From assembly GCF_019204005.1 (NCBI RefSeq), contig NZ_JAGSPA010000002.1:1-64000 (forward strand): a stretch of DNA of 64,000 nt, read 5' to 3'. Source of the DNA: Pacificimonas pallii (GTDB taxonomy: Bacteria > Pseudomonadota > Alphaproteobacteria > Sphingomonadales > Sphingomonadaceae). This document shows, piece by piece, positions 4,754 to 55,793 of this stretch. Each line of letters starts with the position of its first letter. The stretch's first letter is position 1. Position numbers and translations under genes: made by a program. A model generated the notes under the pieces. That model was given only the letters and a program-made list of their open reading frames with translations. It did not search any database and was not told the DNA's origin.

Positions 4754-5560
4754 ATGAGATTCAAGACACTCGCGACTGGCGCGATCGCCATCGCCGTTAC
4801 CGCGGCGCCAATGGCCGTCGCCGCGAAAACCGTCGCACTGACCGTGACCATCGAAAATATCGCACCTGAAAACACGGTGAGTTTCGCGCCGCTGCGCTTT
4901 GGTTTCGGAAATGGCACGTTCGATGCGTTCAACATCAACGAAGCTGCCGGTGCGGAAATCATCTCGATTGCCGAGGGTGGTTCGGGGTCCGCATGGCTGC
5001 CCGCATTTGCCGCGGCCGATCCGGGCGCCGTGATCGGCTCGTCCGCAGGGGCGCAGATTCCGGGCACGTCGCAGATTGTCGGCACATTCAATATCGACAC
5101 GGAGGCGAACCGCTTTTTCACGTTCGCCAATATGGTTGTCCCCTCGAACGATCTGTTTCTGGGCAATGATAACCCGATGGCGTTCAACCTGTTCGACGAT
5201 GATGGCAATCTGCAACTGTTCGACATCACGCAGACGGTCGCGGCGATCTGGGACGCGAATTCCGAAGTCGCGGACCCGGACAATGCCGCATTCATTCCGG
5301 GCGCGAACAATGACGCGCGGATCGCCGAGAACGGCCTGATCGCGTTCGCCTTTGATGAACTGAGCGTGTTCAATGGCCTGACGACGGCAGCGGGTTATGT
5401 CTTTGATGGTTCGAACCTGAGGCTGGACACGGATATTTTCCGCGTCACTTTTTCCGCGGTGGACGTAAACGAGGTGGCCGAGCCAGCGGCGATCCTGCCC
5501 TTTGCCAGCGGTCTGGCCCTGCTGGGATTTGCGGCGGTTCGCCGTCGCCGCCGCGCGTAG
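4754..5560 (+). CDS. Spondin-domain-like secreted protein with PEP-CTERM-type tail
   Basis: A 268-residue exported protein. The signal peptide is AIAIAVTAAPMAVAAK (cleavage near residue 24). The mature part starts VALTVTIENIAPEN...FAPLRFGF, followed by a short FDAFN motif, which matches bacterial spondin_N domain proteins. The C terminus has the sorting-signal layout: a short motif (VAEPAAI), a hydrophobic helix (SGLALLGFAAV) and a basic end (RRRRRA). This layout is recognised by exosortase in PEP-CTERM systems, though here it is a variant without a strict P-E-P. It is probably released to the surface or matrix. No exosortase gene is in the window. Confidence 0.75.
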   Translation: MRFKTLATGAIAIAVTAAPMAVAAKTVALTVTIENIAPENTVSFAPLRFGFGNGTFDAFNINEAAGAEIISIAEGGSGSAWLPAFAAADPGAVIGSSAGAQIPGTSQIVGTFNIDTEANRFFTFANMVVPSNDLFLGNDNPMAFNLFDDDGNLQLFDITQTVAAIWDANSEVADPDNAAFIPGANNDARIAENGLIAFAFDELSVFNGLTTAAGYVFDGSNLRLDTDIFRVTFSAVDVNEVAEPAAILPFASGLALLGFAAVRRRRRA

Positions 5561-28623: not shown

Positions 28624-28638
28624 GCAAGATCTGGGCCA
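28624..28638 (-). promoter_or_regulatory. Sigma-54-like -24/-12 promoter
   Basis: Read on the minus strand, TGGCCCA-GATC-TTGC matches the consensus TGGCACG-N4-TTGC at the invariant GG and GC and in spacing. It points at the PEP-CTERM gene starting at 28562. Confidence 0.6.
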
Positions 28639-28999
28639 GAAATAGGAAATTGTTTAAAAACAAATTATTGCAAATATTCCCTCTCCGTTATGGACACAAA
28701 AGTGTAAAGAATGCCGACACTTTTTCGTCTTTCGGAAGATGTGCGTTACGGAGCTTACCTGACAGGTAATAAAGATGCTGATGCCCAATAATATTGGCCA
28801 CGTGACGGGACTGTATATCCATCACGCCGCTAGTTGCACATGCTTCTCATTTCGCGCACGGGTTTCGTTCTGATTGTTTAGCGCCGGACAATCGAAAGAA
28901 GCATGATCGTGATTTTTGCGAAAACGCCGCCGCCAAGGAGGATGCGCGCTGCCAGACCCGAGGCCGGTTGCCGTCCTTCGCCAGTCTTCGCCTGACACA
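28639..28999. other. Gene-free, AT-richer intergenic stretch
   Basis: Between the PEP-CTERM promoter and a terminator-like hairpin there are about 360 bases with clearly lower GC than the surroundings, including A/T-rich tracts near 28646-28690. I found no open frame with coding character, no RNA gene and no clear repeat. It belongs to a lower-GC island that continues to about 30100. Confidence 0.5.
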
Positions 29000-32519: not shown

Positions 32520-32658
32520 GGGGTCAATATGGAGATGCCCGGGCGCGCGCGCCAGTGCGATCGACCCCTGGCGAAACTGTCGGTATTTTTTACATGTTAA
32601 CAAAGGTTAAGGTCGCATTAGGCATCCTTGCCCCTCTTTCGCGGCGATAATCCCGGTC

Positions 32659-32673
32659 TGGCACGGCGATTGA
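32659..32673 (+). promoter_or_regulatory. Sigma-54-like promoter, imperfect -12
   Basis: TGGCACG-GCGA-TTGA matches the -24 element perfectly and has the right spacing, but the invariant C of the -12 GC is A. It lies 44 bases before the PEP-CTERM gene start at 32717. Confidence 0.45.
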
Positions 32674-32716: not shown

Positions 32717-33376
32717 ATGAAGACGCTCTCCAAAGTTTCCGCCCTGTCCTTTGTCATCGCGGCTGGCCTGTCCTTTGGCGCCAATGCCGGGATTATCGCC
32801 ACGGGCGCACCAACGGGTGCCGTGACGCTTGGCAGCCCCGATGACATTCTGGGCGGCACATTTGTTGCCGACGCCGATACGCTCGAGTCGTTCTCGATCT
32901 GGGTTTCCGACAATAATGAACAGGGGACGACCGCGTCGTTTTACGGCGTTGTCGCTGAAGTCGACGGCGACGGCTTCCCGACCGCAAATCTGCTTTACAC
33001 CAGCGCCATTCAGGGCGGCGTGAAGGCCGAAACGGAATTCACCTTCTTCCCGGGGATCACGCTGACGGTGGGCCAGACCTATTTCATCGGCTTCGACCAG
33101 GGTTTCTATGCGCCGGACGTGAGCGCAACCGGCACCAGCGCCCTTGACCTGGGGACGGTCGCGGCGAGCGGCGACAATGTGGGCGGCATGGTCGTCGGCC
33201 GCTTCAACCGCTCGCCGAGCACGACGTTCGAGCGGTCGAACCGCGACATTGCCGGGACCATCGTGATGACGAATTCCGGCGCGTTGCAACAGGTCCCCGC
33301 ACCCGGCGCGCTCGCCTTGCTGGGTCTTGGCGTCTTGGGCATGGCCGCCGCCCGCCGCCGCCGGGCCGCCGCCTGA
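32717..33376 (+). CDS. PEP-CTERM-type secreted protein
   Basis: A 219-residue exported protein. The signal peptide ends GANA-G (about residue 22). The mature domain is predicted to be all-beta (GGTFVADADTLESFSIW, TFFPGITLTVGQTYFIGFD), like choice-of-anchor domains of other PEP-CTERM substrates. The tail is VPAPGALALLGLGVLG followed by AARRRRAAA. The start at 32717 is decided by AAAGGA at 32703-32708; an ATG at 32708 overlaps that site. Confidence 0.8.
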   Translation: MKTLSKVSALSFVIAAGLSFGANAGIIATGAPTGAVTLGSPDDILGGTFVADADTLESFSIWVSDNNEQGTTASFYGVVAEVDGDGFPTANLLYTSAIQGGVKAETEFTFFPGITLTVGQTYFIGFDQGFYAPDVSATGTSALDLGTVAASGDNVGGMVVGRFNRSPSTTFERSNRDIAGTIVMTNSGALQQVPAPGALALLGLGVLGMAAARRRRAAA

Positions 33377-46177: not shown

Positions 46178-46960
46178 ATGCGTCTTGATACTTTGGCTGC
46201 ATTTATCGGATTGTCATTTGCCGCGACGGGCAGCCAGGCGGGTATATTGTACAGTTTTACCAAGGCGCCCCCCGAGGCTGAATTTGTCGGCGCCTATGGC
46301 GAGGAGATCAGCTATTGGCATACGAGCTATGATACCGATGGCCTGCTGTCGCTGGATGTCGCGTTCGCGGGCAATGATGTGAGCGATGACGGCTTCTGGG
46401 TCGTCCTGAACAATGGCGGTAACCCGAATGGCGTCGCGCGTTCACTGGCGGTGCTGTACGGTGACGTCCGCAATTCGCTGGTGCAGGCCTATCTTTACGA
46501 GGGTGACGAGCGGGACCGCAGCTGGGACGATCCCGGCAATCTGCTGCAATCCTTCGAAGGCGCGCTGACGCTGAACGGGCCGAGCGGATATAGTTTCACG
46601 CTGGATGTCGCCGATCTGAACAGCCGCGCGGACTTTGGCGCGAACTGGCGCGGCGCGCAGTTCCGCGAGCAGCTGGGGATCTGGTTCCACCCCTATATGA
46701 CCGCCGAATTCACCTATGGCCTGTCTGGCGCCATCGAGAGCGTCAATCAGTTTGAGGACGGCTATTACGACACCGCCGCCGAGAATACGCAGTTCGAACA
46801 GCCGGGCGAAGTGCCCGCGCCCGCCGCGCTCGGCCTTCTCGGACTGGGTCTTGCCGGGCTGGGAGCGGTGCGTGGACGGCGGCGCCAGGGGGCCGGTTCG
46901 CGTTTGAATCTGGGTTTTCGGTTTCTCGCAAGAGACGGATACCGGCTTTCGCCGGTATAA
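46178..46960 (+). CDS. PEP-CTERM-type secreted protein with a repeat-encoded C-terminal extension
   Basis: A 260-residue exported protein. The signal peptide ends at TGSQA-G (about residue 22). The mature beta-rich domain contains DGFWVVLNNGGNP. The sorting tail VPAPAALGLLGLGLAGLGAV then RGRRR would normally end the protein, but the frame runs on for about 23 residues and stops inside the dispersed 34-bp repeat, ending DGYRLSPV. The processed protein would lose this end if an exosortase acts. ATG 46178 is chosen for the signal peptide. No sigma-54 site was visible upstream. Confidence 0.75.
   Translation: MRLDTLAAFIGLSFAATGSQAGILYSFTKAPPEAEFVGAYGEEISYWHTSYDTDGLLSLDVAFAGNDVSDDGFWVVLNNGGNPNGVARSLAVLYGDVRNSLVQAYLYEGDERDRSWDDPGNLLQSFEGALTLNGPSGYSFTLDVADLNSRADFGANWRGAQFREQLGIWFHPYMTAEFTYGLSGAIESVNQFEDGYYDTAAENTQFEQPGEVPAPAALGLLGLGLAGLGAVRGRRRQGAGSRLNLGFRFLARDGYRLSPV
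46925..46958. repeat. Dispersed palindromic repeat, copy 2
   Basis: This 34-bp unit matches 9956-9989 except at two positions. The hairpin is ATACCGGC-TTTC-GCCGGTAT. It overlaps the last codons of the PEP-CTERM gene, whose stop codon lies just past the repeat. A CAATCC-GATCA stretch follows within about 40 bases, as in copy 1. Confidence 0.75.
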
Positions 46961-54873: not shown

Positions 54874-55024
54874 GGCACGTCATGTAGGCACATGAGAAGC
54901 GGAACCCAAGCCGGGTTTTCCAATCACCGATCAAAAAGATGCCGGCCCCGAAAACTGTCGGATTTCTTTACAGTCCGAAACGACCATGCGCGGCCGAATG
55001 CGGTAAATCAACGATTTGGTTAAT

Positions 55025-55039
55025 TGGCGCGGAATTTGC
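55025..55039 (+). promoter_or_regulatory. Sigma-54-like -24/-12 promoter
   Basis: TGGCGCG-GAAT-TTGC matches TGGCACG-N4-TTGC with one mismatch and exact spacing, with the invariant GG and GC present. It lies 59 bases before the PEP-CTERM start at 55098. The gap from nusB (54874) to here holds no gene. Confidence 0.7.
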
Positions 55040-55097: not shown

Positions 55098-55793
55098 ATG
55101 AAGTGTTCCTTTCTGATTACCGCCGCCGTCACGGCGACGCTTGCCACGGCGGCATCGGCCTTTCCTGTTTTCTGGACGGACTGGCAGCGGAGCAGCGGTA
55201 CCAACGCGCAGTCGAACACGGCGTTTGGCGAAATCAACACCGGCACGGACACGATCGGTGTCAATTATTCGGGCGCGATCTCGTTCTTTCAGGACGGCGT
55301 GAACGGGAATACCACCAACTATTGGACCGAGCCGAACGCAGGCGACCGTCCCTATACAGGCGGCCCGATCGACAATGCCCCTCCCGGAGCGGAAATGATC
55401 GCGCTGAATGTTGCCGGGACGAAGACGCTGACATTCAGTCAGGCGGTCACCGACGTCTATTTCGGCCTGGTCAGCTGGAACGGGAATAGCGGCTCGTTCA
55501 GCGAGCAGATCGATCTGGTCAGCGAAGGCACCGGCTATTGGGGCGGCGGCAACTGGACACTCAATGGCAGCGGCAACGGCTTTGTTGCCTCCGGCGAGCT
55601 TCATGGTGTGCTGCGGATCACCGGCAATTTCACGAGTGTCAGCTTCACGGACGTCGCCAATGAGTTCTGGCACGGCTTCACCGTCGGGGTTGCGGGTGTG
55701 GCGGATCCTGACCCCGTGCCCGCACCTGGTGCGCTTGGCCTTCTGGGCCTTGGGGCGCTTGCCCTTGGCCTGCGTCGTCGCAGCGCGCGCTAG
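55098..55793 (+). CDS. PEP-CTERM-type secreted protein
   Basis: A 231-residue exported protein. The signal peptide ends TAASA-F (about residue 21). The mature domain is beta-rich with aromatic and asparagine residues (NYWTEPNAGDRPYTGG; TDVYFGLVSWNGNSGSF), like DUF and choice-of-anchor domains of surface proteins. The tail reads VPAPGALGLLGLGALALGL, then RRRSAR. The ATG 55098 has CGGAG 8 bases before it. A strong terminator follows. Confidence 0.82.
   Translation: MKCSFLITAAVTATLATAASAFPVFWTDWQRSSGTNAQSNTAFGEINTGTDTIGVNYSGAISFFQDGVNGNTTNYWTEPNAGDRPYTGGPIDNAPPGAEMIALNVAGTKTLTFSQAVTDVYFGLVSWNGNSGSFSEQIDLVSEGTGYWGGGNWTLNGSGNGFVASGELHGVLRITGNFTSVSFTDVANEFWHGFTVGVAGVADPDPVPAPGALGLLGLGALALGLRRRSAR

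Follow-up and report, generated by a model that had tools for sequence, protein, structure and literature searches.

Helically phased pairs of a 17-bp box and a sigma-54-type site precede most PEP-CTERM genes of Pacificimonas pallii and the gene of a small membrane protein

The window, which is the whole stretch of 64 kb of Pacificimonas pallii DNA analyzed here, carries five PEP-CTERM genes above the TIGR02595 cut-off, and a putative sigma-54 promoter was found at three of them (Table 1). Reading and scoring of the sequence confirmed the letters and coordinates that the preliminary description had given for all three sites. The site at 55025–55039 (plus strand), ranked there as the best match, reads TGGCGCG-GAAT-TTGC, having one mismatch to TGGCACGN4TTGC and both GG and GC, whereas the site at 28624–28638 (minus strand) reads TGGCCCA-GATC-TTGC, having two mismatches, and that at 32659–32673 (plus strand) reads TGGCACG-GCGA-TTGA, having a perfect −24 half and GA at −12. 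We rejected the idea that the three sites are equally good, as the one at 32659 lacks GC at −12 and passes only if this is allowed, despite lying at the favored spacing described below. Thus, the claim that three of the five genes share the promoter held with regard to the paired elements present at all three and was weakened by the change of GC to GA at 32659. The ATG at 55098 is located 58 nt past the end of the 55025–55039 site, and the encoded protein scored 20.3 bits with Pfam PF07589, slightly below the cut-off of 20.7.

Table 1. Positions of the paired elements and of the genes considered
Feature	Position	Strand	Remark
Activator box, Haft motif 1, presumed PrsR site TGTCGGATTTCTTTACA	54956..54972	+	Upstream of 55025 site
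Putative sigma-54 −24/−12 promoter TGGCGCGGAATTTGC	55025..55039	+	Spacer 52 from box
PEP-CTERM protein, 231 aa	55098..55793	+	TIGR02595 22.5 bits, cut-off 16
Putative activator box TGTCGGCATTCTTTACA	28703..28719	−	Upstream of 28624 site
Putative sigma-54 promoter TGGCCCAGATCTTGC	28624..28638	−	Spacer 64 from box
PEP-CTERM protein, 261 aa	27777..28562	−	TIGR02595; PF07589 above cut-off
Putative activator box TGTCGGTATTTTTTACA	32578..32594	+	Upstream of 32659 site
Sigma-54-like site TGGCACGGCGATTGA	32659..32673	+	Spacer 64; −12 GC changed to GA
PEP-CTERM protein, 219 aa	32717..33376	+	TIGR02595; PF07589 above cut-off
PEP-CTERM gene without pair, non-member	4754..5560	+	TIGR02595
PEP-CTERM gene without pair, non-member	46178..46960	+	Start uncertain (gene caller: 46247)
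Unnamed small membrane protein gene, own box and putative sigma-54 promoter	G000:C5:546898-547232 (L078, L159)		Relatives L151-L186

The promoter type had been described as rare, which did not hold for the motif by itself: a count on both strands of the 64 kb, with GG and GC fixed, gave 3 sites at ≤1 mismatch and 22 at ≤2 mismatches. Sigma-54-like sites are therefore common, and a site alone proves nothing. The element that had been overlooked is a near-identical 17-bp box (TGTCGGN5TTTACA-like) upstream of all three sites, ending 52, 64, and 64 bp before those at 55025, 28624, and 32659, respectively, and it is this partner box, not the motif alone, that lifts the sites above chance. A pair scan of the whole window with GG and GC fixed (both strands, spacer 35–95, ≤2 mismatches in the box and ≤3 in the site) returned only the pairs at 55025 and 28624, and a scan of the window with GG and GC free (≤1 mismatch in the box and ≤2 in the site) returned those at 55025, 28624, and 32659 and no others. 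No pairs came from the fixed scan of eleven further 20-kb stretches of the genome. When the site was inverted as a control, the same loose limits yielded 3 pairs over the window and the eleven stretches (284 kb), so that the loose scan is not noise-free.

To compare PEP-CTERM genes with others, a TIGR02595 search of the genome was used, which returned 39 places at E ≤10, including 36 above the cut-off (5 in the window), with a callable start at 34 (one with its frame broken further on) and with 2 fragments. The background consisted of 224 other genes from the window and the eleven 20-kb stretches (248 genes called, minus 5 PEP-CTERM genes and 19 near an edge); the stretches were chosen by round coordinates, not randomly, and gene starts were those of a simple in-house caller or signal-peptide-like starts. 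When the hit-rate comparison proposed in the preliminary description was run, the rates were far from equal: within 250 nt upstream, a sigma-54 site with ≤2 mismatches was present at 21/34 PEP-CTERM genes and 11/224 others (Fisher p 1.8e-14), and the box and site as a pair at 21/34 and 0/224 (p 2.5e-22), where the Fisher values, like the Rayleigh values for spacers, assume independent genes and genomes, which related sequences are not. At ≤1 mismatch, the site was present at 13/34 PEP-CTERM genes versus 1/224 others; the exact box was so at 18/34 versus 0/224, and the box with ≤2 mismatches at 22/34 versus 8/224. Restricting the background to the 98 genes having ≥100 nt of intergenic space likewise gave no pair. 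As the first consensus of the box was derived from the three promoters of the window, the counts are also given minus the five window genes, leaving 19 of 29 PEP-CTERM genes with the pair (by subtraction).

The pair was absent by this rule from 13 of the 34 genes. Two of these, at 33293 (the weak site of the window) and C1:278086 (with a degenerate box), were found on individual inspection to be paired, both at a spacer of 64, bringing the total to 23/34 post hoc. A regulon of all PEP-CTERM genes was rejected, as 11/34 were without a pair after both rescues. The idea of a scattered regulon of PEP-CTERM genes is nevertheless supported by the distribution of the pair, and the proposed control of surface or biofilm proteins, judged from the nature of the PEP-CTERM family and from published work, may be its function.

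The box core TGTCGN6TTTACA occurred exactly 26 times in the 3.02-Mb genome, compared with no occurrence of the reversed pattern. Eighteen were located before called PEP-CTERM genes, one was a second copy before one of those genes, one was before a PEP-CTERM–like gene absent from the TIGR02595 list, one was inside an open reading frame, and five were before other things, including the gene of an 88-aa protein; 29 boxes were tabulated. Several individual loci are described here as observations in their own right. One PEP-CTERM gene has two copies of the box upstream, at G000:C4:731527 and 731268 (L076, L075), separated by 259 bp. A PEP-CTERM–like protein (VPAPAGSLFLLGGIAFLAAGRR) that is not in the TIGR02595 list is encoded behind a box and site at G000:C4:402995 (L072), and the pair is still there at a PEP-CTERM gene with a broken frame at G000:C4:407219 (L033). 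Apparent PEP-CTERM fragments are present at C5:230614 and C5:665453. Also behind a box and site are a protein of 172 aa that by eye has an RRR-type signal, at G000:C4:687296 (L074/L098), next to which come a 54-aa PqqD-like frame, which scored below cut-off, and the gene of an HprK-related kinase A (TIGR04352, above cut-off), and a 90-aa protein with a signal-like start at G000:C6:204040 (L080/L100), for which no family was found. At G000:C1:541395 (L062/L097), the box before the gene of an NYN-domain protein (PF01936) is accompanied by a perfect sigma-54 site. At G000:C1:54456 (L058), a box and sigma-54 site are followed, without a gene, by a predicted 84-nt transcript having a strong hairpin and TTTT, among neighbors that look phage-like by eye. 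No Rfam match was found there (the single match in the locus lay at another place and was below threshold), and among 12 relatives only a 24-base piece was found, in one. This locus may be a relic promoter or a small RNA.

The distance between box and site proved to be ordered. The spacers cluster near 43, 52, 63, 74, and 84 bp, recurring roughly every 10.5 bp. In this genome, they were 52–55, 62–65, and 84 at the 21 genes found by the rule, and 42, 52, 53, 64, 65, and 75 at six other box sites. We extended the analysis to 398 genomes of the phylum by two gap-pattern searches covering spacers of 35–96, which gave 46 and 22 matches (17 and 2 of them in this genome), compared with 6 and 4 for reversed controls; the matches outside this genome were spread over 18 and 17 genomes, respectively. 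From the 29 outside matches of the first search, 18 were fetched and read, and 12 of these were before a gene with a PEP-CTERM–like end (by eye), 4 before the small membrane protein gene described below, and 2 unclear. The mean resultant length at 10.5 bp was 0.86 for the rule-based genes of this genome (n = 21), 0.55 for other genomes with coding and non-coding matches alike kept (n = 48), 0.49 for other genomes minus the 60–65 peak (n = 35), 0.83 for relatives of the 55098 gene (n = 14), and 0.68 for all spacers together (n = 91), with a single representative counted for each of two near-identical couples, one of Sedimenticola loci and one of the G260/G370 matches. When periods of 8 to 14 bp were scanned, the best fit was at 10.2–10.9 bp. 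Off-phase spacers were also present (68, 88, and four at 66). This phasing, observed both here and in other genomes of the phylum, suggests that the activator site stays on one face of the helix. Phase dependence is known among other sigma-54 activators. For PEP-CTERM promoters, no report of phasing was found in the literature searched, mostly as records other than full texts, and section 7 of Haft et al (2006; PMC1569441) and its passages on helix, spacer, and phase make no mention of spacer periodicity. The helical phasing of the spacer would thus seem to be a new addition.

The 55098 gene has an unusual distribution. For its protein, none of the three genomes of the same genus that were examined gave a match, and 2 of the remaining 36 relatives did (E ≤1e-8); its relatives were found in Sedimenticola, Accumulibacter, Nitrosomonas, Elioraea, sphingomonads, Desulfobulbaceae, and others. 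This absence from genus-mates, together with the scatter across bacterial groups, suggests that the gene probably moves between lineages. A putative pair (≤3 mismatches each in box and site, which are loose limits) was present at 15 of 30 loci of the family and was not found at the other 15, including all six Nitrosomonas loci, the upstream DNA being short at some. This split would fit the transfer of gene and promoter together into PrsR-bearing hosts.

The 88-aa protein behind one of the exact boxes is not a PEP-CTERM protein, and searching by DNA pattern alone showed the same protein to follow the pair in four further genomes. The five proteins aligned (alignment A1) are 77–91 aa in length, and no fitting Pfam or NCBIfam family was found. 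Two hydrophobic stretches are present in each of the two members tested, with the first being only moderate, so that a two-helix topology is a prediction. In many of 14 listed loci, the gene follows an astB-like gene and faces an mscL-like gene (by eye). Among 59 genomes of the family, the gene was present in 36 and PrsR above cut-off in 46, and the box before the gene tracks PrsR: a pair with ≤3 mismatches each in box and site preceded the gene in 28 of 31 PrsR-positive genomes compared with 1 of 5 PrsR-negative ones (Fisher p 0.003). The A1 proteins from G000, G004, and G126 had been found through their box; minus these three seed genomes, the pair was present at 25 of 28 PrsR-positive loci (p 0.004). 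Under strict limits (≤1 mismatch in the box and ≤2 in the site), the values were 20/31 and 0/5. The lone PrsR-negative pair has 3 mismatches in the box and 3 in the site, and among the PrsR-negative genomes, G012 has a completeness of only 89%. The spacers were 42–45 in every PrsR-positive pair. Co-occurrence of the gene itself with PrsR was weak (31 carriers with and 5 without PrsR; 15 non-carriers with and 8 without; p 0.06). The small membrane protein appears to be controlled by the PrsR switch as well, and the presence of this promoter at its gene would likewise seem to be new.

The genome encodes one RpoN and one exosortase. EpsB_2 (529 bits), PrsK (593), PrsR (about 685–686), and PrsT (529) are encoded in tandem in L084, all scoring above their NCBIfam cut-offs, that for PrsR being 502.6 and its next-best match in the genome 352 bits. 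Autoregulation of prsKRT or the exosortase was rejected as a candidate: the only pair in the 20-kb L084 (L084:19001-19086) is inside a called gene and far from the operon, and no pair was found in the 3.75-kb exosortase locus L190 by the loose-limit scan that was used for both.

Several other explanations of the sites can be weighed against this evidence. In a GC-rich genome, TGGC...TTGC might arise by accident and three of five genes be mere luck, as could be expected from the 22 motif-only sites (≤2 mismatches) in 64 kb and the 11 of 224 other genes with one upstream; but the site at 21/34 versus 11/224 genes, the pair at 21/34 versus 0/224, and the phased spacers argue otherwise, and a chance origin, to which we assign a next to negligible probability, was rejected on the gene-set comparison and the pair scans. 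The box includes TTTACA, which would make a fair −35 hexamer, and a sigma-70 promoter overlapping the box could accordingly be imagined, with the −24/−12 match being incidental. As the −24/−12 letters recur at a phased distance downstream of the box in this and other genomes, we regard this as very unlikely, although slightly less so than chance.

A box and site that are both real might also be operated by an NtrC-type protein other than PrsR, since further NtrC-like activators are present in the genome (the best at 352 bits versus 685 for PrsR), one of which might recognize the box. The presence of the small-protein pair in 28/31 PrsR-positive versus 1/5 PrsR-negative genomes points instead to PrsR, as do the published phylogenetic profile of the motif, which fits PrsR, PrsK, and PrsT (PMC1569441), and the DAP-chip enrichment obtained with the Desulfovibrio vulgaris regulator DVUA0057, for which that report describes no validated binding motif (PMC3333781). 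We thus consider another activator improbable, if the least so of the three alternatives, and retain PrsR as the likely regulator.

The text of Haft et al (2006; PMC1569441) describes a 17-nt motif 1 ending in TTTACA, followed by a spacer (mean 62.8 nt, SD 10.6, range 32–92) and a sigma-54 site, the pair being located before 99 of 167 proteobacterial PEP-CTERM genes, and PrsK, PrsR, and PrsT were named there by a phylogenetic profile matching the motif. Compared with this description, TGTCGGATTTCTTTACA is likewise 17 nt long and ends in TTTACA, the spacer of 52 nt at 55025 is within the published range, GG and GC are both present there, and the distance of 58 nt to the start codon is within the published 23–221 nt, whereas GC is replaced by GA at 32659; motif 2 is 17 nt in the publication and 15 nt here, so that a shift of a base or two at its ends is possible. 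The other elements also agree: the downstream gene at 55098 is a PEP-CTERM gene (TIGR02595), the two motifs precede 21/34 PEP-CTERM genes of this genome, PrsK, PrsR, and PrsT are all present in L084, and repeated copies of motif 1 are found in the Haft et al (2006) set and here. The pair fits motifs 1 and 2, PrsKRT is present, and this type of regulon has been known since 2006. A difference from that study is that one target here other than a PEP-CTERM protein, the small membrane protein, is conserved across the family. A related case is pepA of Aquincola tertiaricarbonis, a PEP-CTERM gene with a predicted upstream enhancer sequence, the transcription start of which was mapped at a −24/−12 promoter dependent on RpoN1 (PMC9850573). 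That case concerns one gene of another bacterium and was established by experiment, whereas the present one concerns a genome-wide set known from sequence alone.

Taken together, it is very probable that 55025–55039 is the −24/−12 element of a two-part, enhancer-dependent promoter operated by PrsK and PrsR. NtrC-family sigma-54 promoters in general comprise a −24/−12 element, an upstream activator site, and an AAA+ activator; the present promoters differ in having a family-specific box and a short, in-phase linker. In the mechanism proposed, the kinase PrsK would respond to a signal and phosphorylate PrsR, an NtrC-type activator, which would bind the 17-bp box with its center about 85–100 bp upstream of the presumed start. 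PrsR would then bend or loop the short intervening DNA, allowing its AAA+ domains to reach the sigma-54 RNA polymerase at −24/−12, and ATP hydrolysis would open the promoter. With a linker of only about 4–8 helical turns, box and promoter would have to share a helix face, and spacers in steps of about 10.5 bp are what a shared face would produce. The promoter would be common to most, not all, PEP-CTERM genes and to a few others, including the conserved small membrane protein, and expression of all these genes may thereby be coordinated.

These findings, obtained with an appropriate control, support the sigma-54 regulon of exported surface proteins first spotted from sequence alone. We also find it reasonably probable that a helical-phase rule of about 4–8 whole turns applies to PrsR promoters here and in other genomes of the phylum and that PrsK and PrsR have, in this family, a conserved target other than a PEP-CTERM protein, namely an undescribed small membrane protein, the box of which is retained in most PrsR-bearing relatives and is lacking or degraded in those devoid of PrsR; this protein would be an unrecognized component of the PEP-CTERM/exosortase system. 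The spacing rule should help in locating PrsR targets and is indicative of activation across a short, stiff DNA linker. The stimulus of PrsK was called obscure by Haft et al (2006; PMC1569441), and the small membrane protein is a candidate for a missing part of this system.
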